DNA of 64,000 bases from an uncultured Duodenibacillus sp. (lineage in GTDB: Bacteria > Pseudomonadota > Gammaproteobacteria > Burkholderiales > Burkholderiaceae_F): positions 113,072 to 177,071 of the forward strand of contig CALXKM010000049.1 of NCBI GenBank assembly GCA_944388865.1, read 5' to 3'. The notes under the pieces are model-generated. The model ran no database searches and was not told where the DNA came from. It saw only the letters and a program-made list of their open reading frames with translations. Positions 2,450-63,563 of this stretch are shown piece after piece; the stretch's first letter is position 1, and every line of letters starts with the position of its first letter. The translations under genes were made by a program, and so were the position numbers.

Positions 2450-2470
2450 GAAGTCTTTTTCCAAGACTTC
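2450..2470 (+). other. Intercistronic hairpin between nusA and infB
   Basis: Perfect 8-bp stem, GAAGTCTT 2450-2457 with AAGACTTC 2463-2470, loop of 5 nt. It starts 5 bases after the nusA stop and has no T-run downstream, so it is more likely a processing, pausing or mRNA-stability element than a terminator. Confidence 0.5.
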
Positions 2471-2587
2471 CATTGAAATAATCTGAATTTGCCGTTTGTC
2501 TAGAAACGACGGCGCCGGACAAAGAAGGCTTTCGAGCCCGCGGCGCACGACAACATCAAAGCATTCGGCAGGGAGAAAAAGGAAAAC

Positions 2588-5584
2588 ATGGCAAACAATA
2601 CGGTTCGCGAATTTGCCCTCGAGCTTAAGGTTTCTGCCGGTACGCTGCTTTCTCAGCTGCAGCAGGCAGGGGTTGCAGTCTCCAACGAAAGCGATGAAAT
2701 CAGCGATGCCGACAAGGCCAAGCTTCTCGAGAGTCTGCGCAAGGCTCGCGTGCAGGATAAGCCGCGCAAAATTACTGTAACGCGACGCGAAACGACGACG
2801 ATTCGTCAAAATGACGGCCAGGGCGGGGCGCGCACGATCGAAGTTGAAGTTCGTCGCCGCCGCGTCTTCGTCAAGAAGCCCGCTGCGGCTCAGACAACGC
2901 CTGCCGAGGCCGAGCGTGCAAGCCAGATGGCGGCTGCGCGCGCCGAGCTTGAGGCTCAAGCCAAGGCTGAGGCTGACCGCAGAGCCGCCGAAGAGGCCGC
3001 TCGCAAGGCTGCCGAAGAGGCCAAGGCAAAGGCTGAGCAGGAGGCGGCTGAACGCGCCCGTGCTGAGGCCGAAGCAGCCGAAGAGCGCCGTCGTCAGGAA
3101 GAAGAGCAAAAGCGCGCTGCTGAGCTTGAGGCGCAACGTCGCGAGCAGGAAGCCGCCCGCAAGGCTGCCGAAGAAAAAGAGGCAGCGCTTAAGGCTGCTC
3201 AGCAAAAGCAGGCCGAAGAACAAAAGGCTGCCGAGCAAAAAGCAGCAGAGCAAAAAGCGCAGGCCAAGGCACAGCAAGAGGCTCAAGCCAAGCGTGAGGC
3301 TCAGGCTAAAAAGGCTGCTGAAGAGGTCGCTGCTGCCGAGGCTCGTGCCGCTGAGCAAAAGCGCCGCGAAGAAGCACGCCGCAAGGCGCAGGAAGAGGCC
3401 GACGCCATCCGTGCGATGCTTGCCAAGCCTAAGACCGTTCTCAAGGCCAAGCAGGATCGCGGCGACAAGAATGATCGTCGTGATGAAGCAGCCGCCGGCA
3501 AGCAGGCTCAAAGCCAGCAGCCGCAGACGGCCAAGACGGCCTCGAAGTCTGCTGCCAAGACCGCTCAAGGCAATAAGCCTCAGAAGCCAGCCGACAACAA
3601 GAAGTCTTCCGGCAAGTCCGAAGGCGGCAAGAAGGCAGGCGTCAAGGGACGCAAGGCTGAAAAGAACAACGATCGCGGAGGTTGGGGCGAAGACAACCAA
3701 AAGCGCCGCACGATGAAGACGCGCGGTGTGGTCGACGGCGGCGAGGAAACCACCTGGCACAGCCGCAGCCGCAAGAATCATCGCCACGAGGCCGCCGTGC
3801 AGCATGAGATGCCCACCGAGCCGATCGTGCGCGAGGTGACAGTGCCCGAGACGATCTCAGTGGCCGATCTCGCCCACAAGATGGCCGTCAAGGCAACCGA
3901 AGTGATCAAGACGCTCATGAAGATGGGGCAGATGGTGACAATCAATCAGATGCTCGATCAGGAAACGGCCATGATCATCGTTGAGGAAATGGGCCATGTG
4001 GCTGTGGCGGCCAAGTCTGACGATCCGGAATCGCTTTTGGGCGAACTTGAAGAAAATGCGCAGCAGTATCCGGAAGTGCCGCGCCCGCCCGTGGTGACCA
4101 TTATGGGTCACGTTGACCATGGCAAGACCTCGTTGCTCGACTATATCCGTCGCGCCAAGGTCGCCGCTGGCGAAGCCGGCGGCATTACGCAGCACATCGG
4201 CGCCTATCACGTCAAGACTCCGCGCGGCATCGTAACCTTCCTCGATACCCCGGGCCATGAAGCGTTTACGGCCATGCGTGCTCGCGGTGCGCAGGCTACC
4301 GACATCGTGATTCTGGTGGTGGCCGCCGACGACGGCGTCATGCCCCAGACCAAGGAAGCCATTGCGCACGCGCGTGCTGCCAATGTGCCTTTGGTTGTGG
4401 CCATCAACAAGATTGACAAGCCCGAAGCCAACATCGAGCGCGTCAAGGGAGAGCTGGTGCAAAACGGCGTGCTTCCTGAAGAGTATGGCGGCGACGTACC
4501 CTTCTGCCCGGTGTCGGCCAAGAGCGGCCAGGGTGTGGACGAACTCTTGGAAAATGTGCTGCTGCAGGCTGAAATGCTCGAACTCAAGGCTCCTGCCGAA
4601 GGGCATGCCAAGGGCATCGTCATCGAAAGCCGCCTTGACAAGGGGCGCGGCCCTGTGGCTTCGGTGCTCGTGCAGTCGGGCTTGCTCCAAAAGGGCGACA
4701 TCGTCCTTGCCGGACAGGCTTTCGGCCGCGTGCGCGCCATGATCAACGAAATGGGCAAGCAGGTCGCTTCGGCCGGTCCTTCGATTCCGGTTGAGATCCA
4801 GGGTCTGTCGGATGTGCCCGCCGCAGGCGACGAAATTCTCGTCGTGCCCGACGAACGTCGTGCTCGTGAGGTCGCGCTTTTCCGTCAGGGCAAGTACCGC
4901 GACGTCAAACTTGCACGCCAGCAGGCTGCCAAGCTCGAAAATATTTTTGCCAACGCCGCAGAAGGCGAGGTCAAGACCTTGGCGCTCATTATCAAGGCCG
5001 ACGTGCAGGGCTCGACCGAGGCTCTTGTGCATGCCTTGACGAAGCTTTCGACCGAAGAGGTGCGCGTGCAGGTCGTGCACAGCGCCGTGGGCGGCATTTC
5101 GGAAACCGACGTCAACCTTGCAGCTGCTTCGCAGGCCGTTATCATCGGCTTTAACGTACGCGCTGATGCGCAGGCTCGCAAGCTTGCCGAGCAGGAAAGC
5201 GTTGATGTGCGCTACTACAACATCATCTACGATGCCGTCGATGATGTGAAGGCGGCCATGAGCGGCATGCTCTCGCCCGAAAAGCGCGAGACCGTCATCG
5301 GCATGCTCGAAATCCGTCAGGTCATCCGTGTGCCCAAGGTCGGCTTCATTGCCGGCTGCCGCGTGCTCGAGGGTGTGGTGCGCAGAAACGCAAATGCACG
5401 GCTGCTGCGCGACAACGTCGTTATCTGGACGGGCGAACTTGCTTCGCTGCGCCACTTCAAGGACGACGTGCGCGAAGTGCAGGCCGGAAACGAATGCGGC
5501 TTGTCGCTTAAGGGCTATGACGACATCAAGGTCAACGATCAGCTCGAAATCTTCGAGGTGACCGAAGTGGCTCGTACGCTTTAA
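2588..5584 (+). CDS. infB: Translation initiation factor IF-2
   Basis: IF-2 is the GTPase that brings initiator fMet-tRNA to the 30S subunit and promotes subunit joining. The 998-residue protein has an IF2_N module (1-55), a very long Ala/Glu/Lys-rich coiled linker (about 95-300), a second IF2_N module (about 415-470), the G domain, and the C-terminal domains II-IV. G motifs are visible: GHVDHGKT at 507-514, DTPGHE at 553-558 and NKID at 607-610. The linker length is in the usual range for betaproteobacteria. The start at 2588 follows a purine-rich AGGGAGAAAAAGGA region. Confidence 0.98.
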
Positions 5585-51842: not shown

Positions 51843-53858
51843 ATGCAGAAAGTCAAATACGGCGTCTGGAACGGCGTCAAATACGACAATACTCAGGGGG
51901 GCGATGCAACGCCTCCGGATCTGCCCATATCTGCTTTGCAGAATTTCAATCCCGGCAATCCGATAGAAGCAATTATCGGCAAGCCGGGTTTTCTGGTTTT
52001 CAATGAGGCCGTGAGCCTAACGGGCATTCTTTATCGTTATTACGCACGCACCCACGCTATTGCGTGCGGGCGGTGCACGCCCTGCCGCACCGGTTCGATA
52101 CTTCTTGAGCAGGCTCTTGAGAGCTTGATTCGAGGTGAAGGCGACAAGGTCGATTGGGATCATATCTACGACACGGCACTGCAGATGCGCCGCACCAGCA
52201 TGTGCGGCATCGGACGCACGTCGCCTGTGGCATTGATCGGCGCAATCAAGTACTTCAAAGACCGTCTGTTGAATAATCCCACGCTGATGGTGGGCGACAT
52301 GTACACAACGGTCACGGCCAAGTGCATTGAAGCTTGCCCGGCTCACGTCAACATTCCGCGATACATCGATTATGTGCGCGATGGACACCCTGAGCTTGCC
52401 GTGGGAGTGCTTTTGCACCACTATCCGTTGGTTGCCTCCTGCGGGCGCGTGTGCGCCAGACCGTGCGAAGCAGCTTGCCGTCGCAACTACATTGATACCC
52501 CGGTGGCCATCAAGGACATCAAGCGCTTTGCCGCAGACAATGTGGGAGCCTCGGTCTCCGAGCTCTTCAAAGGCATGGACCCGATGCTCGATCCCACCAA
52601 GGCGCGCGTTGCCGTTGTGGGAGCGGGACCAGCAGGCATCAATTGCGCCTACAACCTGTTGATGATGGGCTATCCCGTCGATATCTACGACAAAGATGAA
52701 AATGCGGGCGGCATGGCCTTAAGAGGCATTCCTCCGTACCGACTGCCCAAGGGGCTGCTGCAGAAAGAAACCGATGCCATCGGAGAACTCGGCGGCGTTT
52801 GGCATTTCGGCAAGAAGCTCGGGCGCGACTTCACCGTATCGAGCCTTTTTGACGAGGGTTACGGAGCGGTGTTTCTCGGCATCGGCTGCGCCGAGGGAGC
52901 CTATCTTGGACTGCCCGATGAGGACACGACGCTCGAAGGCTATCGCAACGGCATCGATTTTCTGCTTGAAGTCGAAAAGGGCGTCGCAGAAAATGATCTG
53001 CCCAAGATCGAAGGCGACGTGGTCGTCGTCGGCTGCGGCAATGTGGCTATGGACTGCTGCCGTACGGCCAAGCGCATCTGCACGGGCAAGGTTCACGTCG
53101 TCTATCGCCGTACGGTTCATGAGGCAAGTGCGGATCCCGAAGAAATCGAAGCCGCACAGGCCGAGGGCGTCGAATTTCATTTCCTTACCAACCCAGTGGG
53201 CATGCACAGCGCTGACGGCAAGGTTACGGGCGTGCGGCTCGTTAAGATGGAATTGACCGAGAAAGACGCCCGCGGCAGAAGAGGCGTGCGTGCCATCGAG
53301 GGAAGCGAATTTGACATCAGTTGCTCAACGCTTATTGCCGCCATTGGCCAAAAACTTGATCGCACGGCATTTACCGAAGCCGACGGCGTGCTCTTTGATA
53401 GACGCGGCAATATTGCCGTGACGAGTGCTCTTGCCACGTCGCGCCCGGGCGTGTTCGCGGGCGGCGACTGCGCAACAGGTCCTACGACGCTCATCGGTGG
53501 TCTTGCGCACGGTGAGCGTGCTGCATACTCAATTGATGAATATCTCTCGCGTGGTTCCGTGGGCTTCGTGCCGCGTTTCCGCATGGGACAGATTCTGCAC
53601 GACTGCCGTCTTCTTGAGGATGGCCGCCCCGAGCAGCCCCATCGCAAGATGCCGCGTGAGAAGCTGCCGCAGATGCGAGTTGAAGATCGCGAAGGAAATT
53701 TCTGCGAGGTCGATCAGACCTTCACGGCAGAACAAGCTCAGCGTGAAGCTGCGCGCTGCATGCGCTGCTACCGGCTGTATGCCGTTGTGACGCCGCGCCC
53801 GATCCCGGGCAATGAGCGCATCGACTATCAAAATGAAAAGGTTCTGCCGGGAGCTTAA
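51843..53858 (+). CDS. NuoF-type Fe-S domain fused to GltD-type NAD(P)H oxidoreductase (hydrogenase partner)
   Basis: A 671-residue electron-transfer protein. Residues about 50-145 match the NADH_4Fe-4S domain of NuoF/HydB (Cys75, Cys78, Cys81 and Cys121) but the FMN and NADH-binding part of NuoF is absent. From about 155 it is GltD-like: an Fe-S region with CIEACPAHVNIPRY and SCGRVCARPCEAACRR, an FAD Rossmann motif (VAVVGAGPAGINCAY), and an NAD(P) Rossmann motif (VVVVGCGNVAMDCC) followed by VYRR, which favours NADPH. A C-terminal CMRCYRLY ends it. It lies 4 bp before the [FeFe] hydrogenase gene and likely passes electrons between NAD(P)H and that enzyme. Confidence 0.85.
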   Translation: MQKVKYGVWNGVKYDNTQGGDATPPDLPISALQNFNPGNPIEAIIGKPGFLVFNEAVSLTGILYRYYARTHAIACGRCTPCRTGSILLEQALESLIRGEGDKVDWDHIYDTALQMRRTSMCGIGRTSPVALIGAIKYFKDRLLNNPTLMVGDMYTTVTAKCIEACPAHVNIPRYIDYVRDGHPELAVGVLLHHYPLVASCGRVCARPCEAACRRNYIDTPVAIKDIKRFAADNVGASVSELFKGMDPMLDPTKARVAVVGAGPAGINCAYNLLMMGYPVDIYDKDENAGGMALRGIPPYRLPKGLLQKETDAIGELGGVWHFGKKLGRDFTVSSLFDEGYGAVFLGIGCAEGAYLGLPDEDTTLEGYRNGIDFLLEVEKGVAENDLPKIEGDVVVVGCGNVAMDCCRTAKRICTGKVHVVYRRTVHEASADPEEIEAAQAEGVEFHFLTNPVGMHSADGKVTGVRLVKMELTEKDARGRRGVRAIEGSEFDISCSTLIAAIGQKLDRTAFTEADGVLFDRRGNIAVTSALATSRPGVFAGGDCATGPTTLIGGLAHGERAAYSIDEYLSRGSVGFVPRFRMGQILHDCRLLEDGRPEQPHRKMPREKLPQMRVEDREGNFCEVDQTFTAEQAQREAARCMRCYRLYAVVTPRPIPGNERIDYQNEKVLPGA

Positions 53859-53862
53859 GGTC

Positions 53863-55662
53863 ATGAAAGCATGGATCAACGATATTGAAATCGAATTTAC
53901 TGAAGGCGAAACCGTTCTTCAGGCCGCTTCTCGAGCGGGCATCTTTATTCCGACGTTGTGCGCATTCTTGCCTTTGGATCACACGCCGGGAACGTGCCGC
54001 ATGTGCTTGGTGGAAATTTCTCCTGGGGCTGACGGAAGCGAAAAGCAAATTGTCACGGCCTGCACGACGCCTCTTGTTGAGGGCATGCGTGTTCAGACTC
54101 GCACGGCTGAGGTGCGCCGCGTGCAGCGCATGCAGGTTGCGTGGATTTTTGCCGATCACGATCAGGACTGCGCAAGCTGCGCTCGCTACGGAAACTGCGA
54201 GCTGCAGGATCTGGCGCTTTACGTAGGCTTGCGAGACAACACTTGCAATGGCCGCTTTACGCAAAAGCGCCCCGACGACTGGTCGGCAACGGGTGTTGTG
54301 CGCGACGCCAACAAGTGCGTGCGCTGCGGGCGCTGCATTGAAGTCTGCCGTCGCGTGCAGGGCATTTCCGCCTTGACGCTCGATGACATCGGAACTGCCA
54401 GCGGCGTAGGCGTGGCCGGTGCTAAGCGCTGGGCCGATAGCTCGCTGTGCGTGCAGTGCGGACAGTGCACATTGGTGTGTCCGACTGGCGCTTTGAGCGA
54501 GCACGATCAGATTGAAAAGGCTGTCGACTGGCTCAGCGATTCGGACATCAAGACCGTGGTTGCATTTGCGCCGGCTGTGCGCGTGACGATCGGCGACGAA
54601 TTTGGACTGCCGGCAGGGCAAAATGCCGAAAAGAAGATCATCACGGCATTAAAGCGCCTGGGGGCGGACTTCGTCTGCGACATCAACTGGGCCGCTGACG
54701 TGACGATCATGGAAGAGGGTACGGAGCTTTTGCATCGCTTGGAATCCGGCAAGGGATTGCCGATGATGACAAGCTGCTGCCCGGGCTGGGTGAATTTCGT
54801 TGAAAAGCTCCACCCCGAGCTCATTGAAAATTTGTCGAGCACCCGCTCGCCGCAGGGCATCTTTGGTTCCCTCGTCAAGACTTGGTTTGCCAAGGAGCAC
54901 GGGCTTGATCCGGCAAAGATCAGATTTATTTCGCTCATGCCCTGCACGGCCAAAAAGGACGAGGCGGCGCGCGAGCAGCTTGCCAAAGACGGCATGCCCG
55001 ACACCGATTTGGTGCTCACCGTGCGCGAGTTTGCTCGTCTGCTGCATCGCTACGGCATTGATTTGACGACGCTGCCGGATTCCGACTACGACTCGCCCTT
55101 CATGACTCAAAACACCGGTGCGGGCGCTATTTTCGGCGTCACGGGCGGCGTGATGGAAGCGGCTTTGCGCACTGTGCACCATGCGGTCACGGGCAAAGAG
55201 CTCGAGCATGTTGCCTTTGAAGCCGTGCGCGGGCAGGATTGGCTGCGCGAAGCCGAAGTCGACCTTGGCGCCAAGGGCAAAATCAAGGTTGCCGTGGTGC
55301 ATGGGCTTGCCAATGTTGCCCAGCTCATCGAACGCATGAAAAACGGTCAGGCCGACTATCAGTTTATTGAAGTGATGGCTTGCCCGGGCGGCTGCGTTGA
55401 CGGCGGCGGCACGGTTCGCTCAAAGTTCAACTACCTGCAGTTTGCCAAAAAGCGCGCCGAAGGCATCTACGACATTGATGAGAAGCGTCCGATTCGCCAG
55501 TCGCACAACAATCCTGACGTTGTGAGGCTCTACAAGGAGTTTTTGGATAAGCCTCTGAGCTGCAAGGCCGAAGAGCTTCTTCATACCTCCTACAAGGATC
55601 GCAAGGTCGCGCCTCGCCGCAGAACCATCACGGAAATCTGGCGCGAAGTCAAGCTCGGCTGA
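53863..55662 (+). CDS. [FeFe] hydrogenase catalytic subunit, group A (glutamate-synthase-linked type)
   Basis: A 599-residue cytosolic [FeFe] hydrogenase. It has an N-terminal [2Fe-2S] domain (Cys33, 45, 48, 67), a His-ligated [4Fe-4S] site (DHDQDCASCARYGNC), two ferredoxin clusters (CVRCGRCIEVC and CVQCGQCTLVC), and the H-cluster domain. L1 is TSCCPGW (relay Cys305, ligand Cys306), L2 is MPCTAKKDE (Cys361), L3 is MACPGGCVDGGG (Cys507, Cys511). A small-subunit-like tail follows (NNPDVVRLYKEFLDKPLS). All ligands are intact. The gene order with a GltD-type partner matches group A2. Maturases HydE, HydF and HydG are not in this window. Confidence 0.93.
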   Translation: MKAWINDIEIEFTEGETVLQAASRAGIFIPTLCAFLPLDHTPGTCRMCLVEISPGADGSEKQIVTACTTPLVEGMRVQTRTAEVRRVQRMQVAWIFADHDQDCASCARYGNCELQDLALYVGLRDNTCNGRFTQKRPDDWSATGVVRDANKCVRCGRCIEVCRRVQGISALTLDDIGTASGVGVAGAKRWADSSLCVQCGQCTLVCPTGALSEHDQIEKAVDWLSDSDIKTVVAFAPAVRVTIGDEFGLPAGQNAEKKIITALKRLGADFVCDINWAADVTIMEEGTELLHRLESGKGLPMMTSCCPGWVNFVEKLHPELIENLSSTRSPQGIFGSLVKTWFAKEHGLDPAKIRFISLMPCTAKKDEAAREQLAKDGMPDTDLVLTVREFARLLHRYGIDLTTLPDSDYDSPFMTQNTGAGAIFGVTGGVMEAALRTVHHAVTGKELEHVAFEAVRGQDWLREAEVDLGAKGKIKVAVVHGLANVAQLIERMKNGQADYQFIEVMACPGGCVDGGGTVRSKFNYLQFAKKRAEGIYDIDEKRPIRQSHNNPDVVRLYKEFLDKPLSCKAEELLHTSYKDRKVAPRRRTITEIWREVKLG

Positions 55663-55712: not shown

Positions 55713-55774
55713 GGCGCAAACAGCACGAGTGTGCGCGTGATTTTTGAGCTTTTGCATGCTGGTCGTGCTTTTTC

Positions 55775-55820
55775 AACGACGGCAGAGTATTTTTTCTAAA
55801 ATACTCTGCCGTCGTTTTTT
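55775..55820 (+). terminator. Very strong terminator between hydrogenase and two-component genes
   Basis: A perfect 19-bp stem (55775-55793 with 55798-55816, arms beginning AACGACGGCAG) with a TTCT loop and T-run to 55820. It separates the hydrogenase operon from the kinase gene, whose start is therefore placed downstream of it. Confidence 0.93.
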
Positions 55821-55851: not shown

Positions 55852-57825
55852 ATGCTGCTTCTGACATCGGGCATGCACTGTCTGCAGAGTTTGGTCTTTG
55901 GGTTGCGATGTTTGGCGCATCGGGGCAAAGTCTGTCTGAAGGCTTGCGCTTTGCTTTTGATGTGTTCAAGTCTTTTCCGTGCAGTGGCGGCCGATGTTTC
56001 TGCACAGCGCAATCTTTCTGACATTGACGTTCTTTCTTCGGCATCCTTTTCAAAGTCAACGACAATTTCTTCGGGCAAAGAGGCCCTTGTTGGCTCCGAA
56101 GTCGCAAGCGGTTATCCCGTCATCACCATTGCCATGCCGGATACAGCTGATTTGGGACGAGAGCGGCCGATGGTGATTTCGACAATCGAAAAACTAAGCC
56201 GCGCTCTGCCGGGCACTCAATTTAAGCTTCGCATTGTGCTTACTGCCGACGGCAGCGCGCAGCTGGCAATGCTCAAGCCTGATTTCATGTTTGCTCCAGC
56301 CGGAGCCGTTGCCGTCTGGCATCGAGAAGGAATTGAGTCCTACCGCATCGCAACGAGAAAAAATGCGCTTGCCAAGGAGGCGGGCAAAAGCGTGGGATCG
56401 GTGTTCGTTGCGCTCAAAAGCCGCAGTGATCTTGACGATATCGAGGATCTCAAAGGAAAAGTAGTGGTGGCAGGGCTGCCCGATTCCGTCCCGGGGTGGC
56501 TCGCCGCTTTGGAAGAAATTCGAAAAGAAGGATTTGATCCGGACGAATTTTTCGGATCTTCGGAATTTTTATTTGACTTTTATCCGGAGATCATTGCTTC
56601 GCTGTGGGGCCGCAAAGCCGATGCCGCCGTCTTTCCTACCTGTCTATTGGAGAGCCTGCAGGAGCAGGGACTGGTGGCCACCGATCAGCTCAAAGTGATT
56701 CACGATCGCAGCGATGATGCGCTCGCTTGCAAACGATCCACAGAGCTTTACCCCGATCTGAGTCTGGTGGGATTTGCCTGGACGCCCGAAAAAATGGTGC
56801 GCGACGTGACTGTTGCTTTGATGAGCGAGCCGGCAGATGCGGGTTTTGAATGGCTTTCATATGTTTCGCACGCCAATGTTGACGAGCTCTTCAAAAGCCT
56901 AAAGACCGGACCGTACAGTTACTTGCGCGACTACAGCGTCAAGGCGCTTTATGCTCGATATCCGGCAGTGTTTTGGAGCGTTGCGGCAATGCTGATCGTG
57001 CTTTGCATTCACGGCGCCTTGCTGCAGATTTTGGTGCGGCGCCGCACGCGGCAGCTCTCTTTGACGGTGGCCGAGCAAAAGCGCATGGAGCAAGAAGCGC
57101 GTGAACATCGCCGGCGGCTTGGACACCTCGAAAGACGAAACATTGTCAACCAGATGTCGGGCATGATTGCTCACGAGATCAATTCGCCCGTGGGAGCAAT
57201 CTGCAATTTCAAAACTATTTTGGATATGCTTCTGGACTCAAAAGCGAAAAACAATCCCAACATACGCGTGGCTTTAGACGGCATTGAAAGCGAAGCGCAG
57301 CGTATTGCGGGCATTGTGGGGCGCGTCAGAAGCTACGCCAAAAAGCAAAAGCATGCGCACAAACCCTGCGATTTGGTTGAAATCTGCAGACGTGCCGTGC
57401 GCGCGCTTTATGTGAGCACGTCGGTCAAGGCAGAGGTTGACGAGTGCTATGACGTCGATCGCGCACCCGTTGTGGGCGATTCGCTGGAGCTTGAGCTGCT
57501 TGTGCTCAACTTGCTTCGAAACGCAAGCGAAGTTGAGCCGCGAAAAGGTCGGCGCGTGCGTATTGCGCTTGCCGTTAGAAGACTCGAAGACGGACGCTGG
57601 CGGCTTGAGATCAAAGACAATGGCAAGACCTTGAGCGACGAGCAATTTGAACGGCTCACGGCAATGATGCAAAGCGTCAAGCCAGAAGGGCTCGGGATGG
57701 GACTTTCGATTGTGAGAGGCATTGCGGACAGTCATGGCGCGGAGCTAGAGTTCCAAAGAGCCCAGCAGGGCGGCCTTTTGGTTCTCTTCACTCTTGAGGC
57801 CGAAAGCGGCGAGCATCTTTCTTGA
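55852..57825 (+). CDS. TtrS-like sensor histidine kinase with periplasmic PhnD-type binding domain
   Basis: A 657-residue membrane kinase. After a signal-like N-terminus (about 1-45) comes a periplasmic substrate-binding domain of the PhnD/TtrS type (about 75-360, MPDTADLGRERPMVISTIEKL, KSRSDLDDIEDLKGKVV), a transmembrane helix (about 375-400), a coiled linker, and a HisKA/HATPase core with phospho-His441 (MIAHEINSPVGA) and N-box Asn557 (LVLNLLRNASE). The G2 box is MGLSIVRG. It senses a periplasmic ligand, tetrathionate in characterised TtrS, but not necessarily here. A start at 55744 would cross the upstream terminator; ATG 55852 has AAGG 6 bp upstream. Confidence 0.88.
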   Translation: MLLLTSGMHCLQSLVFGLRCLAHRGKVCLKACALLLMCSSLFRAVAADVSAQRNLSDIDVLSSASFSKSTTISSGKEALVGSEVASGYPVITIAMPDTADLGRERPMVISTIEKLSRALPGTQFKLRIVLTADGSAQLAMLKPDFMFAPAGAVAVWHREGIESYRIATRKNALAKEAGKSVGSVFVALKSRSDLDDIEDLKGKVVVAGLPDSVPGWLAALEEIRKEGFDPDEFFGSSEFLFDFYPEIIASLWGRKADAAVFPTCLLESLQEQGLVATDQLKVIHDRSDDALACKRSTELYPDLSLVGFAWTPEKMVRDVTVALMSEPADAGFEWLSYVSHANVDELFKSLKTGPYSYLRDYSVKALYARYPAVFWSVAAMLIVLCIHGALLQILVRRRTRQLSLTVAEQKRMEQEAREHRRRLGHLERRNIVNQMSGMIAHEINSPVGAICNFKTILDMLLDSKAKNNPNIRVALDGIESEAQRIAGIVGRVRSYAKKQKHAHKPCDLVEICRRAVRALYVSTSVKAEVDECYDVDRAPVVGDSLELELLVLNLLRNASEVEPRKGRRVRIALAVRRLEDGRWRLEIKDNGKTLSDEQFERLTAMMQSVKPEGLGMGLSIVRGIADSHGAELEFQRAQQGGLLVLFTLEAESGEHLS

Positions 57826-57887
57826 TGTGCGCACGCAAAGATATCTCCTACGGCAAGAACAACGCCTGTGAAAAGAGGAATTTAGTT

Positions 57888-58538
57888 GTGAAGACAGAGC
57901 TTCCTTTGATTCGATTGGTCGATGACGACGAACTCTTTCGCGTTTCTCAGACGATGCTTCTGAAGGCAAGAGGCTGGCAGGTTGAGGAATTTGAAAGCGG
58001 CGAGGCTTTTTTGGAAAGCGCTGACCTGCGCAGACCGGGCTGCATTATTCTCGATGTGCGCATGAGCGGCATGTCCGGCATGCAGGTACACAGAGAGTTG
58101 CTCAACCGAGGCTGCAGGCTTGCGGTCATCTTCCTTACCGGACACGGCGACATTCCGATGGCAGTGCGCGCCATGCAGCGCGGAGCGGTGAGTTTTCTGG
58201 AAAAGCCCGTCAAGCCCTTTGAGCTCCTTGAAGCCGTGCAGAAGGCCGTCGAGAGTTCGCTTGAAGCTGCGCAAAAAGACGAGCAGGCTTCAAAAAACCG
58301 TGCAATTTTTGACGAACTGACCGCACGCGAAAAGGAAATCGTCATGCGCGCAGCGCTCGATACGCCCAACAAGGTCATCGCTCGAGAACTCGGCATTGCC
58401 GAGCCTACGGTGAAGATGCATCGTGGTCACGCTTTTGCCAAGCTTGGCGTCAAAAGCCCTCTGGAAGCGTATCGCGTTTTGCTGCGTTTGGGCGTGATGA
58501 AGGATGATCAGGCCGACAGCGTTCAGAGCGAGATCTAA
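57888..58538 (+). CDS. TtrR/FixJ-like response regulator
   Basis: A 216-residue LuxR/FixJ-type regulator with a receiver domain (acidic DDD at 12-14, phosphoacceptor Asp56, Lys in FLEKPV) and a C-terminal HTH (LTAREKEIVMRAAL, VIARELGIAEPTVKMHR). It is the partner of the upstream TtrS-like kinase. GTG 57888 has AGAGGA 8 bp upstream and begins at the receiver fold; ATG 57825, overlapping the kinase stop as TGATG, is an alternative that would add 21 residues. The flavoprotein gene starts 3 bp after its stop, linking regulator and reductase in one operon. Confidence 0.9.
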   Translation: MKTELPLIRLVDDDELFRVSQTMLLKARGWQVEEFESGEAFLESADLRRPGCIILDVRMSGMSGMQVHRELLNRGCRLAVIFLTGHGDIPMAVRAMQRGAVSFLEKPVKPFELLEAVQKAVESSLEAAQKDEQASKNRAIFDELTAREKEIVMRAALDTPNKVIARELGIAEPTVKMHRGHAFAKLGVKSPLEAYRVLLRLGVMKDDQADSVQSEI

Positions 58539-58541
58539 GAC

Positions 58542-60005
58542 ATGTTCAGACGTCGTTGGTTAAGCGCGATTGGCGCGTTCGCACTTTTTGGTTTGCTCTC
58601 GGGTCGAAATTCCTTTGCAGATGCGCTCGCGCAAACTAGCCCGAAAGCGGACGAGGCCGGCATCTTCGATGTCATTGTTGTGGGCACCGGCATGGCCGGG
58701 CACTGCGCGGCAATTTCGGCCAAGCTCTCAGGCGCCCGTCGCGTGATGATGATCGACAAGGCGCCGCTCGTGGGCGGACATTCGGCGTTGGCAAGCGGCT
58801 CAATTGCCTTTGTCGATGCCAAGCGGCAGGCCGCTCAAGGCATTGAGGATTCGGTTGAGAAATTTGTCAACGATGCACGCACGGCCGGAGGAGACATCAA
58901 CGAGGAGCTCGTGCGCAGCATTGCTCTGCATTCTGGCTGCGGCATCGATTGGCTGCAGGCGCAGGGCGTGCGGTTTGCTCCAAACATCTTTCGCGCCTAC
59001 GGCGGCATGCATCCGCGCTGTCTGACGGCCTTCGGCAATTCGGGCGCAAGGTACTATATCTTCAGACTTCACGAAAAGTGCCGAGAACTCGGAATTGAGA
59101 CGAGGCTACTTACGAAGGCTCTGGGATTGCACAGATTTGAAAAAAATCTTTTGGCGCTGAGGCTTCTTGATTCAAGGACCAATTCAGAATACATGGTGCA
59201 GTCGCGCAGCATCGTGCTTGCCACGGGAGGCTTTGGCGCCAATCTTGCTTTGCGCATGCGCTATCGGCCCGAACTCGATCATGAGGTGCCGACAACAGCC
59301 AATCCCCGAGGATTGGCCGAGGATCCGGCAACAGGCGACGGACTTTTTCTGGCGCAGATGCTTGGGGCGGATTGGGTTGACATGGACCGCATGGTGATGC
59401 TTTCCTACTGGGGCGGGCGCATGCTCGACTACATTGGCGCAGAAATCTACGTTGATCAGCAGGGATGCCGGTTTGTCGATGAGACGGCAACGACGGCGCA
59501 CATTGCCCGTGCCATTGCCAGGCTTGCCGGCCGTTCCATGTTTGTGATCACCGATGCCAAATCGGACAAGGGAGTCAATGTCGGCGCAAAAATCGCTGCC
59601 GGCAGCATCCATCGTTCAAATTCAGTGACGGAGATGGCCAGCGAAATGAAGGTCTCGGCCGTCGAACTGCAGCGAACAATTGATGAGTACAACAAATGCG
59701 CCCTTGAGAACAGACAGGATCAGTTTGGCCGCAGGATTTTTCTGCAGACAATTGATCAGCCGCCTTTTTATTGGGGTCGAGAGCGTCTTATGCTGCATAC
59801 GACGCTCGGAGGTTTGAAGACCGACGTGAAGGCGCGCGTCGAGCGAAGCGATGGCTCGGTGATCTCTGGCCTGTATGCGGCCGGTGAAGTTGCCGGAGGC
59901 ATCTGGGGAAGCGACCGTTTGGGCGGAACCGGTCTGCTGCAGTGCCTTGTGCAGGGAAGGACCGCGGGTGAAGAAGCGGCGCGGCATGCGTCGCAAAGCA
60001 GATAA
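58542..60005 (+). CDS. Exported fumarate-reductase-family flavoprotein lacking the proton-donor Arg
   Basis: A 487-residue FAD protein of the flavocytochrome c/FrdA family with an N-terminal RRRW signal-like sequence (about 1-28), so probably periplasmic. The FAD motif is VIVVGTGMAGHCAA. Substrate residues His419 (MLHTTLGG) and Arg459 (GSDRLGGTG) align with His504 and Arg544 of Shewanella Fcc3 at the same 40-residue spacing. The position of the catalytic proton donor Arg402, in the motif after FVDE, is Thr318 here. It may therefore reduce something other than fumarate, or by another route. It is co-transcribed with the two-component genes and carries no heme motif. Confidence 0.85.
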   Translation: MFRRRWLSAIGAFALFGLLSGRNSFADALAQTSPKADEAGIFDVIVVGTGMAGHCAAISAKLSGARRVMMIDKAPLVGGHSALASGSIAFVDAKRQAAQGIEDSVEKFVNDARTAGGDINEELVRSIALHSGCGIDWLQAQGVRFAPNIFRAYGGMHPRCLTAFGNSGARYYIFRLHEKCRELGIETRLLTKALGLHRFEKNLLALRLLDSRTNSEYMVQSRSIVLATGGFGANLALRMRYRPELDHEVPTTANPRGLAEDPATGDGLFLAQMLGADWVDMDRMVMLSYWGGRMLDYIGAEIYVDQQGCRFVDETATTAHIARAIARLAGRSMFVITDAKSDKGVNVGAKIAAGSIHRSNSVTEMASEMKVSAVELQRTIDEYNKCALENRQDQFGRRIFLQTIDQPPFYWGRERLMLHTTLGGLKTDVKARVERSDGSVISGLYAAGEVAGGIWGSDRLGGTGLLQCLVQGRTAGEEAARHASQSR

Positions 60006-60061
60006 AACCTTTCTAGTGCTTGAGCTTGCGCATGAGCGCAAAACTAAGCCTTCTAAACGAG

Positions 60062-60105
60062 ATTGCCCGCACGCTGGGAGAGAGAGGCAGCATGCGGGCA
60101 ATTTT
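60062..60105 (+). terminator. Terminator after the kinase-regulator-flavoprotein operon
   Basis: ATTGCCCGCA 60062-60071 pairs with TGCGGGCAAT 60093-60102, followed by TTT. The convergent flavoprotein gene ends 22 bp further on. Confidence 0.75.
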
Positions 60106-60126
60106 GCGGGATAAGAAAGACAGCGA

Positions 60127-61689
60127 TTAAGCCTTCATCTTGGCAAACTGTTCGCCTGCGATCATGCCAAAGGTGAGGGCATCAATCACGGCGACCGTAC
60201 CCAGGCGAGAAGCGCCGTGCACGCCGCCCGTGACTTCGCCGCCGGCGTACAGTCCCTTGATCGGGGCGTGCGTCGTGGCCGAGATGACCTGAGCGTTGTT
60301 GTTGATCATCACGCCGCCCATGGTGTGGTGAATCTTCGGGCAGACTTCAATGCCGTAGAACGGGGGCTTGGAAACATCGAGCCCCTTGTTGAACTTGAGA
60401 ATGCGGTTGAAGTCCTTGTCGGTGCCTTCCTTGACGAAGTTGTTGAACTTCTTGACTTCAGCAAGGAATGCGTCCTGCTTGATGCCGAAGTGCTTGGCAA
60501 GAGCTTCGAGGGTATCGAACTTTTTGACCGTGCCCATTTCGAGCGGCAGCTTCACGAACGAAGGATTGATGGCCTTGACGATGGCATCGTCGCACACGGC
60601 AATCGGGTAGTTCTGATCGGTGCCGATGACCTTAAAGAGTGCATCGGCCTTGATCTTGCGGCCGGCGTGTTCGTCCATGAAGCGCTTGCCGGTCTTGCGG
60701 TCCACGACAAGGCCAAGGTCCATGCAGGCGTGGTTGGTGAAGTTGACGGATACGCCGAATCCCTTTTCATGCGGGTTGCAGTAGGGCAGGAACTGCAGCC
60801 AGCAGAGCTGCACGGGAGCCGCGCCGATGCCCAAAGCCTTGATGAGCACGCCGGCCGTGGCACCGGGCTGGTTGGTGGAGTCGGTTGTGGGGACAACGCG
60901 CGGATCTTGAATCTGACGGAACCAGATGTCGCGCGAGAAGCCGCCCGCGGCAAGCATGACGCCGAGCTTGGCGCGCACAGTGTGGCTCTTGCCGGTCTTG
61001 TTTTCCAGATCGTCGCTGGCAAGCTTGTTGTTGAAGCGATAACCGGAACGATAGGTCACGCCGAGAACTTCGTTTTTGTCGTCGCTCACAATGAAGTCGT
61101 CGAACTTGGCTCGAGTGCGGATGACGACGTTTTTGATCTTTTTCAATTCAGCGTGCATTGGACGGATGTAGCCCGATCCGGAGCCAGCCTTGATTTCGTA
61201 GGAGCGCGGAACGGAGTGGCCGCCTTCAAAGAGCATGTGATTGGGCACGAACTCGCAGCCGCAGTCGACCACCATCTTGATCGTGTCGTTGCAGCGGTCG
61301 GCAATCGTTGCGAGAAGGTTCGTGTGGTTGATGCCGAGACCGTCGCGCAGGCAGTCTTCGATGAAGAGTTCCTTGCTGTCCTTGATGCCCTGAGCCTTCT
61401 GGACGGGGTTGCAGGGGCATGCGACGTTGCCGCCGCAGATGGCGGAATTGCCGCCGACGACGCTCATCTTTTCGAGCATCAGAACGCGCAGACCGGCGCG
61501 GCCGGCCTTCAGTGCGCAGGCCATGCCAGCAAAGCCCGAGCCGATGATGACGACGTCGAACTCTTCTTCATAGGATTTGACGGCAGAAGCGGGGATGCCG
61601 GCGTTGGCAGCAGCGGCAGCCACGAGGGCGCCGGAGGCGGCAACTGCAGATTTCAGAAAACCGCGGCGGGAGGTATCAACGTTTTCCAT
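60127..61689 (-). CDS. Tat-exported fumarate-reductase-type flavoprotein (flavocytochrome c family)
   Basis: A 520-residue flavoprotein with a twin-arginine signal (TSRRGFLKSAVAASGAL, residues 6-22), so it is folded and exported to the periplasm with FAD. The FAD motif is VVIIGSGFAGMACAL. All catalytic residues of soluble fumarate reductases look intact: the proton-donor Arg344 (MDEHAGRK), His454/His455 (IHHTMGGV) and Arg495 (GASRLG). Unlike Shewanella Fcc3 it has no heme domain; the divergent tetraheme cytochrome gene 327 bp away can supply that. Substrate may be fumarate or a related unsaturated acid. Confidence 0.9.
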   Translation of the reverse strand: MENVDTSRRGFLKSAVAASGALVAAAAANAGIPASAVKSYEEEFDVVIIGSGFAGMACALKAGRAGLRVLMLEKMSVVGGNSAICGGNVACPCNPVQKAQGIKDSKELFIEDCLRDGLGINHTNLLATIADRCNDTIKMVVDCGCEFVPNHMLFEGGHSVPRSYEIKAGSGSGYIRPMHAELKKIKNVVIRTRAKFDDFIVSDDKNEVLGVTYRSGYRFNNKLASDDLENKTGKSHTVRAKLGVMLAAGGFSRDIWFRQIQDPRVVPTTDSTNQPGATAGVLIKALGIGAAPVQLCWLQFLPYCNPHEKGFGVSVNFTNHACMDLGLVVDRKTGKRFMDEHAGRKIKADALFKVIGTDQNYPIAVCDDAIVKAINPSFVKLPLEMGTVKKFDTLEALAKHFGIKQDAFLAEVKKFNNFVKEGTDKDFNRILKFNKGLDVSKPPFYGIEVCPKIHHTMGGVMINNNAQVISATTHAPIKGLYAGGEVTGGVHGASRLGTVAVIDALTFGMIAGEQFAKMKA

Positions 61690-62016
61690 GATTAGAAATC
61701 CTTTTGTAATTGGACCTCGGTAAGGAGGAAGGAAGTGTTTTTTTGTCTGAGTTAAAGGCTCGACGCGCTTGCTGAGCTTTTTTTGGGGCTCGTGACGCTT
61801 CGATGCGTGAAGCGTTGCCTAGATGCCGGCGTCTGCGCCATGAACGACATTGTGGGCGTGCCTAGCTGGCGTTGATACATCCCGTGGGATGTATCCCGAA
61901 GGATGTAGCCGCAAAGCGTCTGGACTTTTCACAATGTCAGCGAAATTTCCCCCTGTGCGGAACGCTCAAACGAGAGATCAAACACCGCCCAATCCTTCTT
62001 ACAGGAGACAAAGATC
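61690..62016. other. Divergent regulatory region between flavoprotein and cytochrome genes
   Basis: A 327-bp region with no gene. It holds a stem ACGCTTC/GAAGCGT (61795-61815), the dyad at 61874-61895, and a third copy of the GGATGTA half-site at 61901-61907. No consensus sigma-70 promoter was recognised. Confidence 0.6.
61874..61895. promoter_or_regulatory. Candidate response-regulator operator
   Basis: Perfect inverted repeat: GATACATCCC 61874-61883 and GGGATGTATC 61886-61895 with a 2-bp centre, followed by a direct half-site GGATGTA at 61901-61907. It lies 122 bp before the cytochrome ATG and 185 bp before the flavoprotein start. Confidence 0.6.
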
Positions 62017-62382
62017 ATGACGAAATCGTCAATGGCTGCAAAAACAGTTTTCTTGGCAGCAGCCTGCGCTTTTTTTGCCGCTGCTCTTCCTGCCGGCGCG
62101 GCCGACAACTTTCTGGCGGATCGCCATAAGGCCAAGGGCTTGAGCTGCCAGATGTGCCATGGGCCGGATGCGAAGAACCCTCAGACGCCCACCATTGAGA
62201 CGTGCACCGCGTGCCATCAGAAGGATGCATTGGTGCAAAAGACGGCCAAGGTCAAGCCGACCAATCCGCACGTCTCGCCTCATTACGGCAAGGATTTGGA
62301 CTGCACCAACTGCCATATGGGTCATATGGAGTCGGAAAACTTCTGCAATCAGTGCCATCAATTCAACTTCAAAGTGCGCTGA
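62017..62382 (+). CDS. Periplasmic tetraheme cytochrome c
   Basis: A 121-residue exported cytochrome with a signal peptide (about 1-29) and four CxxCH heme sites: CQMCH 44-48, CTACH 63-67, CTNCH 96-100 and CNQCH 110-114. The spacing and size match the small tetraheme heme domain that is fused to FAD in Shewanella flavocytochrome c. It therefore probably delivers electrons from the quinol pool or a membrane cytochrome to the divergent flavoprotein. AGGAGA precedes the ATG by 9 bp. The porin gene follows after 59 bp. Confidence 0.92.
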   Translation: MTKSSMAAKTVFLAAACAFFAAALPAGAADNFLADRHKAKGLSCQMCHGPDAKNPQTPTIETCTACHQKDALVQKTAKVKPTNPHVSPHYGKDLDCTNCHMGHMESENFCNQCHQFNFKVR

Positions 62383-62441
62383 TGAAAGAGCCGACGTTTG
62401 ATTGACGGTTTTATCGATCGCAACAACAAGAAAGGAAAGAA

Positions 62442-63563
62442 ATGAACGCGATGAAAAAGACATGTGCTGCAGCAGCTGCTGCGGCGGCCTGCGCTGCTGC
62501 GGCTGCCGACGTGACGGTCTATGGATTGGTCGACTATGGGCTGATGTATACGGGAACGGACAACGGCTCAACGACGAGCCATGTCACGGAAATGACTTCA
62601 GGCAAAAATCTCGGATCTCGATTCGGCTTTAAGGGCACGGAAGATTTGGGAAACGGCGTGACGGTAGGCTTTATTCTTGAAAATGGCTTTAGCGCCGATA
62701 CAGGTGCGCTACCGTCCAACGGAAAGTTCTTTGATCGCGAGTCTACGCTTTATCTTGAGGGAGCCTTCGGCAACCTGAAGTTCGGCAGAATGACCCGCAT
62801 GACAGGTTCGACCGGGTCGTCTTGCATTTATGCGGGAAATATTGCGCCGATTTCGACCGGCTACGGCGATTCGATTCCCGGCTACAACGCAATCATGGCC
62901 GGAAATCTGCTTCGTTATGACAATGTCTTCATGTATTCGACGCCGGACTTCGCGGGCTTGAAGCTCTACGTGCAGTACTCGGGCGGCTATGCGCTCGAAG
63001 AAGGCGAAGTTGAAAACAAGTCTTCGGCCAATCGCTACTACGGGCTTGGCATGACCTACAAAAATGGACCATTCAACATGGCCGGCGCGGTTGAACGATT
63101 CAACTGGAAGAGCTATGACGCAGCAACTGATACGGCTGAGGACACAGATGATGGACTTGTTGTTTCAGCCGGTGCAGCCTATGACTTTGCGGTGCTCAAG
63201 TTCTTCTTGATGGGCGCATATTTTGACCATATGCCGCTGTCGATGGATTTTTACGGCGACAGAAACAGACTTCAAGGCGTCTTTGAAAATGATGACTTGC
63301 AGGGTTGGGGCATCAACACGGGAATCAACACCCCGCTTTTGGGAGGCAACCTGCGCGTGTCGCTGGCGTATCTCAATGCAGAGCCCTCGCAGAGTGCGCT
63401 TGCCAATCATGAGGTCGACCGCAGCAACGTGACGATCGGTTGGGAGAATAAACTCAGCAAGCGCACGACTCTCTACATGGGAGCAGCCTGGACGCAGGAC
63501 GATTATCAGGTGCTGACGGCAGAGCGCTACAGCGCAACGGTCGGTCTGATCCACAGCTTTTAG
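62442..63563 (+). CDS. Gram-negative trimeric porin (betaproteobacterial type)
   Basis: A 373-residue outer-membrane porin with a very Ala-rich signal peptide (about 1-21) and the mature start DVTVYGLVDYGLMY, typical of betaproteobacterial 16-strand porins. SRFGFKGTEDLGNG and LYLEGAFGNLKFGRM are early-strand motifs, and the last strand ends in Phe (VGLIHSF), the BAM recognition signal. AAAGGAAAGAA lies just upstream of the ATG. It follows the tetraheme cytochrome gene and may provide entry for the acceptor used by the flavoproteins. Confidence 0.92.
   Translation: MNAMKKTCAAAAAAAACAAAAADVTVYGLVDYGLMYTGTDNGSTTSHVTEMTSGKNLGSRFGFKGTEDLGNGVTVGFILENGFSADTGALPSNGKFFDRESTLYLEGAFGNLKFGRMTRMTGSTGSSCIYAGNIAPISTGYGDSIPGYNAIMAGNLLRYDNVFMYSTPDFAGLKLYVQYSGGYALEEGEVENKSSANRYYGLGMTYKNGPFNMAGAVERFNWKSYDAATDTAEDTDDGLVVSAGAAYDFAVLKFFLMGAYFDHMPLSMDFYGDRNRLQGVFENDDLQGWGINTGINTPLLGGNLRVSLAYLNAEPSQSALANHEVDRSNVTIGWENKLSKRTTLYMGAAWTQDDYQVLTAERYSATVGLIHSF

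Follow-up and report, generated by a model that had tools for sequence, protein, structure and literature searches.

A 64,000-nucleotide stretch of a Duodenibacillus genome (the window; contig C49, positions 113072–177071) carries a gene module that is a real sensor-coupled respiratory cassette, patchily kept among relatives and made of known parts in a new combination. The module comprises a TtrS-like sensor histidine kinase, a TtrR/FixJ-like response regulator, two flavoproteins (FAD1 and FAD2), a tetraheme cytochrome c, and a porin. On balance, we lean towards reading it as a periplasmic cassette, inducible by its substrate, for respiring an organic acceptor that has a reducible C=C bond. 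An earlier note on the window had described a sensing-plus-respiration module with reductases possibly of the organic-acid type, and our sequence comparisons support that description. The source genome (2.49 Mb, 53 contigs) is 98.8% complete, and Duodenibacillus is placed in Sutterellaceae.

The open reading frame (ORF) listing and profile searches find all six genes where the earlier note had put them, with the expected domains (Table 1). The kinase with its periplasmic domain, the regulator, and FAD1 form one operon, as the note had proposed. The adjoining flavoprotein with a twin-arginine translocation (Tat)-type leader (FAD2), the divergent tetraheme cytochrome c, and the porin are found as well. 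FAD2 is convergent with FAD1, and FAD2 and the cytochrome–porin pair diverge from a 327-bp spacer.

Table 1 Features of the cassette and of its upstream boundary, in window coordinates.
Feature	Position	Strand	Remarks
TtrS-like sensor histidine kinase	55852..57825	+	PF12974 periplasmic ligand domain, HisKA, HATPase; longest ORF starts at 55744
TtrR/FixJ-like response regulator	57822..58538	+	Receiver and LuxR-type helix-turn-helix (HTH) domain (GerE)
FAD1, exported-type flavoprotein, class B	58542..60005	+	FAD_binding_2/TIGR01813; Arg377, Tyr381, Thr402, His504, Arg545 (FccA numbering)
FAD2, Tat-type flavoprotein (SRRGFLK)	60127..61689	-	FAD_binding_2/TIGR01813; Arg402, His504, Arg545 kept; His365, Thr377, Glu378 not kept
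Candidate operator, overlapping dyads TACATCCCGTGGGATGTA and TGTATCCCGAAGGATGTA	61876..61907		In the FAD2/cytochrome divergent spacer
Tetraheme cytochrome c, exported-type leader	62017..62382	+	PF14537; four CxxCH
General porin, PorB-like	62442..63563	+	Porin_4
Terminator-like stem	55775..55816	+	19 pairs and a T tail; boundary to the upstream [FeFe] hydrogenase genes, not a working part

Seen directly are the gene content, the synteny in three relatives, the tie between TtrS-like kinases and the FAD1 class, the patterns of residues, and the conservation of the spacer; from these we infer a working model. As to binding, regulation, electron flow, and substrate class, the acceptor would enter via the porin and bind to the periplasmic domain of the kinase. 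The phosphorylated regulator would bind to the double dyad in the spacer and switch on FAD2 one way and the cytochrome and porin the other way. Quinol electrons would reach the tetraheme cytochrome by way of the genome's single NapC/CymA-like cytochrome, and FAD2 would take them up on its flavin and reduce the acceptor. FAD1, whose gene shares the operon of the sensor pair, would handle or bind the same ligand.

FAD2 scores 416.1 bits against TIGR01813 (cut-off 285.45), and FAD1 scores 292.9 bits, just above the same cut-off. We take His365, Thr377, Glu378, Arg402, His504, and Arg545 of FccA to make up the fumarate site. Residue positions follow FccA (1d4d) in an alignment that comprises the 164 locus flavoproteins passing a score and length filter. 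FAD2 has L365, N377, F378, R402, H504, and R545, and FAD1 has L365, R377, M378, Y381, T402, H504, and R545; neither has the full fumarate-site set. Both belong to the same flavoprotein family as FccA and UrdA (6t85), and FAD2 keeps Arg402, His504, and Arg545. Unlike FccA and UrdA, neither protein has a heme motif, the fumarate-side residues 365, 377, and 378 are changed, and FAD1 lacks Arg402. In a comparison of position 365 and the core, FAD2 keeps the core and has Leu where UrdA has Tyr, which does not match a urocanate reductase.

Because FAD1 also has a twin-arginine-like leader (MFRRRWLSA), both flavoproteins look exported. The effective codon number in the window is 34.3 for FAD2, 44.3 for the cytochrome, 49.4 for the porin, 49.5 for FAD1, and 53.8 for TtrS; the codon bias of FAD2 is as expected of a highly expressed gene. 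FAD2 is likely a respiratory reductase, because it keeps Arg402, His504, and Arg545, is far more conserved, and is codon-biased.

FAD2 and the cytochrome resemble the Mrd/Mcc methacrylate redox system of Geobacter sulfurreducens AM-1, which, in the available part of its description, consists of a heme-free Tat-exported flavoprotein and a separate periplasmic tetraheme cytochrome (PMC4427408). The window has the same split arrangement, with a Tat-type flavoprotein free of flagged CxxCH motifs and a separate cytochrome with four. Unlike in Mrd/Mcc, the cytochrome gene is the divergent neighbour of FAD2 and not in the same operon, and a sensor pair is present, whereas none is met for Mrd/Mcc in that part of the description (PMC4427408). 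For electron supply, the genome has one PF03264 gene (122.5 bits, cut-off 24.1), which encodes a NapC/CymA-like protein of 185 amino acids that scores 96.3 of the 310.6 bits of the NapC/NirT model. This protein is the natural, putative donor to the small tetraheme cytochrome.

The module is not a singular system: it is one copy of a cassette that is multiplied in its own genome and in relatives. The genome has 11 TtrS-like kinases with the PF12974 domain, eight of which adjoin (within 1.5 kb) a flavocytochrome-c-type flavoprotein, against a background fraction of 0.125 of positions (binomial P = 7e-6). One TtrS-like gene of the same genome (locus L062, 8918–10792) is broken by an in-frame TGA and may be decaying or carry a sequencing error. 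Together with the own genome, 100 stretches around part of the kinases listed for relatives give at least 117 TtrS-like genes in at least 16 genomes. Many of these are orthologues or close paralogues, and therefore the probability is drawn from the own genome alone. A flavoprotein lies within 300 bp of 76 of the 117 genes examined, within 1.5 kb of 91, and within 3 kb of 94. The count of 91 is low, because several stretches (L063, L070, L164, L166, and L208) end just behind the pair; the next stretch, L188, opens with the flavoprotein behind L208.

For the 26 genes with no flavoprotein within 1.5 kb, 22 have none in the stretch and four have one at 2.0–5.2 kb. The single loci of G026, G050, and G055 have no near flavoprotein (0/3). 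At L067, L119, L124, and L128 (the last by clustering), the kinase lies near an argininosuccinate synthase gene, with no regulator or flavoprotein detected; L140, L147, and L209 have some neighbour clusters in common with these four. Aconitase neighbours occur at L139 and L145, also among the loci without a near flavoprotein. The number of TIGR01813 matches per genome ranges from 28 to 73 in eleven genomes (E ≤0.001, fragments and matches below the cut-off included).

FAD1 belongs to a distinct class. Arg377 is present in 43 of the 56 flavoproteins encoded directly 3' of a regulator, versus nine of the 108 others. One clade of 60 tips, chosen as the largest with at least 75% regulator-downstream flavoproteins, takes 45 of the 56 (FastTree support 0.956). 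Within this clade, class B comprises 22 members including FAD1. Tyr381 is present in all 22 and Arg402, which we take to be the proton donor in flavocytochrome-c-type reductases, in none (0/22); four further flavoproteins with Arg377 lack both Arg402 and Tyr381. His164, Arg377, Glu499, His504, and Arg545 are present in 21/21 members compared, as is Tyr381. In 11 genomes, FAD1 has 24 matches of at least 240 bits, all at TtrS-like kinases (checked by eye against the kinase listing), although two of them (G019 C8 and G033 1633588) are judged by coordinates only and the kinase match at G019 C8 covers the kinase part only. Class B accounts for 21 of the 24; the match at G034 C19:92733, where it is the locus's second flavoprotein, retains Arg402. 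Among 399 genomes of the order, each scored on no more than three candidates, no match at this level lies outside the family of the source (f1); the best outside it reach 172 and 167 bits.

In 53 pairs, the distances between sensors and between kinases rank-correlate with those between the partner flavoproteins at 0.52 and 0.58, respectively; permutation of partners within genomes gives 0.08, with 0/500 as high. All 90 sensor–flavoprotein pairs give 0.31 and 0.30, again with 0/500 permutations as high.

The earlier note had asked whether the neighbourhood is conserved, and the gene order is indeed kept in three genomes of the same genus. G004, G008, and G007 have TtrS–TtrR–FAD1, FAD2, and the cytochrome in the same arrangement. 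Porin matches are found in G004 and G008; in G007, the 1.6 kb that follow the cytochrome gene give no match. Amino-acid identity in the three relatives is 99.0, 93.3, and 85.5% for FAD2, 80.2, 63.3, and 48.7% for FAD1, and 82.5, 67.2, and 50.4% for TtrS. Likeness at fourfold-degenerate sites is 0.67, 0.64, and 0.58 for FAD2 versus 0.49, 0.45, and 0.40 for FAD1. The two flavoproteins are not equivalent: FAD1, which is without the catalytic Arg402, evolves as fast as the sensor, whereas FAD2 keeps the reductase core. More distant kinases, 41–47% identical (C20 of the own genome, G033 L186, and G019 L150), keep TtrS–TtrR–FAD1. A single-protein search of the genome contigs finds one close relative and two distant ones. 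The kinase orthologue of G004 spans two frames at the contig start (L113, 2–1811), which is either a real break or an assembly error.

A candidate TtrR operator, to which the regulator may bind, lies in the FAD2/cytochrome spacer. The block TACATCCCGTGGGATGTATCCCGAAGGATGTA is the best conserved stretch of the spacer, with a pairwise likeness of 0.64–0.88 versus 0.25–0.61 elsewhere in it. In four genomes, 22 of 39 columns of the dyad block are invariant, versus a median of 3; in G007, the block is degenerate. The perfect TACATCC-N4-GGATGTA occurs once in the 2.49-Mb genome, and five sites occur with up to two mismatches (reversed control, three). In the window, two sites have up to three mismatches, and 18/100 shuffles have as many; therefore, presence alone is weak, and the uniqueness of the perfect copy and the conservation carry the argument. 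In 18 relatives, eight sites have at most one mismatch (reversed control, one). Three of the eight belong to those spacers of G004 and G008 that are orthologous to this one, and another, a perfect one, is in G014, of another genus, before a line of dehydroquinase, flavoprotein, TtrS, TtrR, and class B genes (L155). The candidate thus lies between FAD2 and the cytochrome gene rather than before the sensor operon.

A generic TtrR motif across class B loci was considered and rejected. With up to three mismatches, it gives 18 sites at class B loci (reversed control, 2), 14 at class A loci (5), and 21 at the rest (5), the control being not well matched, and eight of the 18 class B sites come from the window's own group and L155.

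The position of the operator bears on a different account of FAD1, which we regard as possible but rather unlikely: FAD1 would be a flavin-bearing ligand-binding partner (co-sensor) of the kinase, and FAD2 alone the respiratory reductase. Such a partner would explain why all 24 strong FAD1 matches lie at TtrS-like loci, why no class B member has Arg402, and why FAD1 evolves at the TtrS rate with ordinary codon use while FAD2 is constrained. The candidate operator, moreover, precedes FAD2 and the cytochrome, and there is no other site with up to three mismatches in the window. However, class B keeps the FAD site together with its six invariant residues, which looks like selection for chemistry. 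In addition, at L155, the genes for the FAD1 relative, a second flavoprotein, and a leader-bearing dehydroquinase lie in one line, and at eight of the 22 class B loci the class B protein is the only flavoprotein of the stretch. FAD1 is, in our view, more likely an ene-reductase or dehydrogenase using Arg377 and Tyr381 than a pure sensory partner. A wider form of the co-sensor idea, which we consider doubtful, is that in this group of gut bacteria a whole flavoprotein class, with Arg402 lost and its genes beside those of the sensors, turned from respiratory reductases into dedicated flavin-bearing co-receptors of TtrS-like kinases that report the acceptor or the redox state, while a separate, highly expressed flavoprotein respires.

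Several observations weigh against an inducible respiration cassette as proposed here. The cassette is found in three of nine genomes of the genus, with the porin match missing in one of the three; in the other six (G001, G002, G003, G005, G006, and G009), which are 84–96% complete, the best kinase match is 30–36% identical. The stretches of the next nearest kinases (C20, L186, and L150) contain no FAD2 or cytochrome orthologue. At eight of the 22 class B loci, the stretch has a single flavoprotein and lacks a cytochrome, and therefore a FAD2-type output does not generalise. Because FAD1 lacks Arg402, its role as a reductase remains putative. Strong codon bias is restricted to FAD2 and does not extend to the cytochrome or porin, and the co-divergence of sensors and flavoproteins can arise from linkage alone. 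As to the operator, four of the eight sites in relatives (two in G003, one each in G024 and G029) have no TtrS-like gene next to them in the fetched stretches. The G029 site is perfect but inside an ORF, and one G003 site is ~460 bp behind a flavoprotein gene. The paralogous regulator of C20 has an HTH domain 73% identical to that of the window, yet its stretch has no site with up to two mismatches, and the L155 regulator has one only 48% identical although its operon has a site.

Sister cassettes give hints of the substrate. Six class B loci (L114, L154, L155, L187, L197, and L211) carry a type I 3-dehydroquinase gene, which all the remaining fetched TtrS stretches lack. Its Tat-like leader is read in L114, L155, L197, and L211; L187 has the hind part, and the L154 match is weak (32% over 214 residues). 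The L155 protein (2453–3409) exceeds the aroD domain cut-off (182.3 vs 139.3). A PF01261 TIM-barrel protein accompanies the gene at three of the six loci (L114, L197, and L211), with a leader in the one that was read; L152, which is not a class B locus, has a weak PF01261 match. In 12 genomes, the six dehydroquinase matches of at least 320 bits are five of the class B loci and G019 C8, where a 325-bit match lies beside a kinase match and a 338-bit FAD1 match. A leader-bearing 3-dehydroquinase in respiratory cassettes suggests periplasmic quinate/shikimate-type metabolism.

These loci raise the question whether the substrate of the window module itself is an alicyclic acid of the quinate/shikimate type, from a ligand family common to class B flavoproteins and the sensors paired with them. 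We consider this improbable, for all that the dehydroquinase is confined to class B loci among the fetched stretches and also occurs at G019 C8, PF01261 joins it at three, and Arg377, Tyr381, His504, and Arg545 are common to class B. The window locus has no dehydroquinase, and the one match in the genome scores 101 bits in a 279-amino-acid frame. Trp402 is present in 6/6 dehydroquinase-linked FAD1 relatives versus 1/16 others (Fisher, 9e-5), although the six fall in about two groups by tip order and are not independent; the FAD1 of the window group has Thr at 402. This pattern suggests that position 402 lines a pocket specific to the ligand and that the window cassette has another ligand than the dehydroquinase-linked loci. 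No sensor residue that marks the dehydroquinase-linked loci was found. Aconitase genes lie near a TtrS-like kinase at L139, L144, L145, and L170, twice with a flavoprotein and a cytochrome in the stretch, and other cassettes may concern aconitate.

The earlier note had held that tetrathionate reductase genes are absent and that the sensor pair probably senses a different compound, and our comparisons support a pair that is not of the ordinary tetrathionate type. TtrS is the best named model for the kinase, which scores 184.7 bits with the TtrS equivalog NF040750 (cut-off 750). The regulator scores 154.1 bits with the TtrR equivalog NF040749 (cut-off 290) and 162.9 bits with the FixJ model (cut-off 255). 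The four molybdopterin oxidoreductases (PF00384) found in the 98.8% complete genome are NapA, a DmsA/YnfE-type protein, a BisC/TorA-like protein, and a PhsA-like protein; none is TtrA, the TtrA model giving at most 83.4 of 1750 bits. Tetrathionate control is rejected on the low TtrS and TtrR scores and on the lack of TtrA among the proteins found. A genuine sensor of tetrathionate or thiosulfate, acting on genes elsewhere and placed next to flavoproteins by accident, is very improbable, since that adjacency repeats far above background, although the PhsA-like enzyme leaves a thiosulfate-type target possible in principle.

In a comparison of the kinase with 29 solved sequences (E ≤0.01), the best stretch is always the kinase part and never the ligand domain. 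Two periplasmic cysteines are nearly invariant in TtrS-like sensors (89/90 and 88/90); they correspond to residues 300 and 329 of the kinase, numbered on the longest ORF. The kinase start at 55852, given by the earlier note, fits better than that at 55744, because the 19-pair terminator-like stem sits inside the longer ORF, past the hydrogenase gene. Terminator-like stems are overall no commoner in the window than in shuffles (14 vs 11.8), and this one is the longest.

Directly upstream of the module, positions 51843–55662 encode a Group A [FeFe] hydrogenase and a NuoF/GltD-like partner. The hydrogenase was considered as a member of the module and rejected on account of the intervening stem and of the lack of a hydrogenase match in the G008 and G007 stretches; the G004 contig begins within the kinase gene and is uninformative here. 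The [FeFe] hydrogenase is probably a separate unit. A protein with the same domain make-up as the NuoF/GltD-like partner is also present in L125 of G007.

In the available part of the report on Shewanella, the TtrSR and ThsSR sensor pairs lie near the reductase operons that they control and sense tetrathionate and thiosulfate (PMC5408782). The window similarly has a two-gene sensor pair beside a reductase gene, and that part of the report indicates that relatives sensing different acceptors exist (PMC5408782). Unlike TtrSR/ThsSR, the partner in the window is a flavin reductase, and the TtrS and TtrR models score far below their cut-offs. From the parts of the papers available, a rumen Duodenibacillus has been tied to hydrogen-driven fumarate reduction (PMC12613782), and Sutterella has fumarate-reductase-type genes near sulfotransferase genes (PMC10932419). 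A search by title and abstract opening, which left subscription literature mostly uncovered, found no publication on TtrSR–flavoprotein cassettes or on a periplasmic dehydroquinase with a flavin reductase; it is therefore no proof of novelty. The earlier note's term, an undescribed system, is too strong. Little et al. reportedly described in 2024 arsenals of respiratory-like flavin reductases in gut bacteria including Sutterella, and the enzymes here are of the same kind, likewise present in tens of copies in a genome.

A gut bacterium of this family has tens of flavin reductases, and for most of them the substrate has yet to be named. Should every TtrSR-like pair respond to the acceptor that the neighbouring enzyme uses, the pairs would offer a direct route to these acceptors. 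Like TtrSR and ThsSR, they could be moved into laboratory E. coli, where they would serve as new biosensors for acids from diet and host. A first case, to judge from the dehydroquinase-linked sister loci, would be the respiration of quinate/shikimate-type acids from plants.

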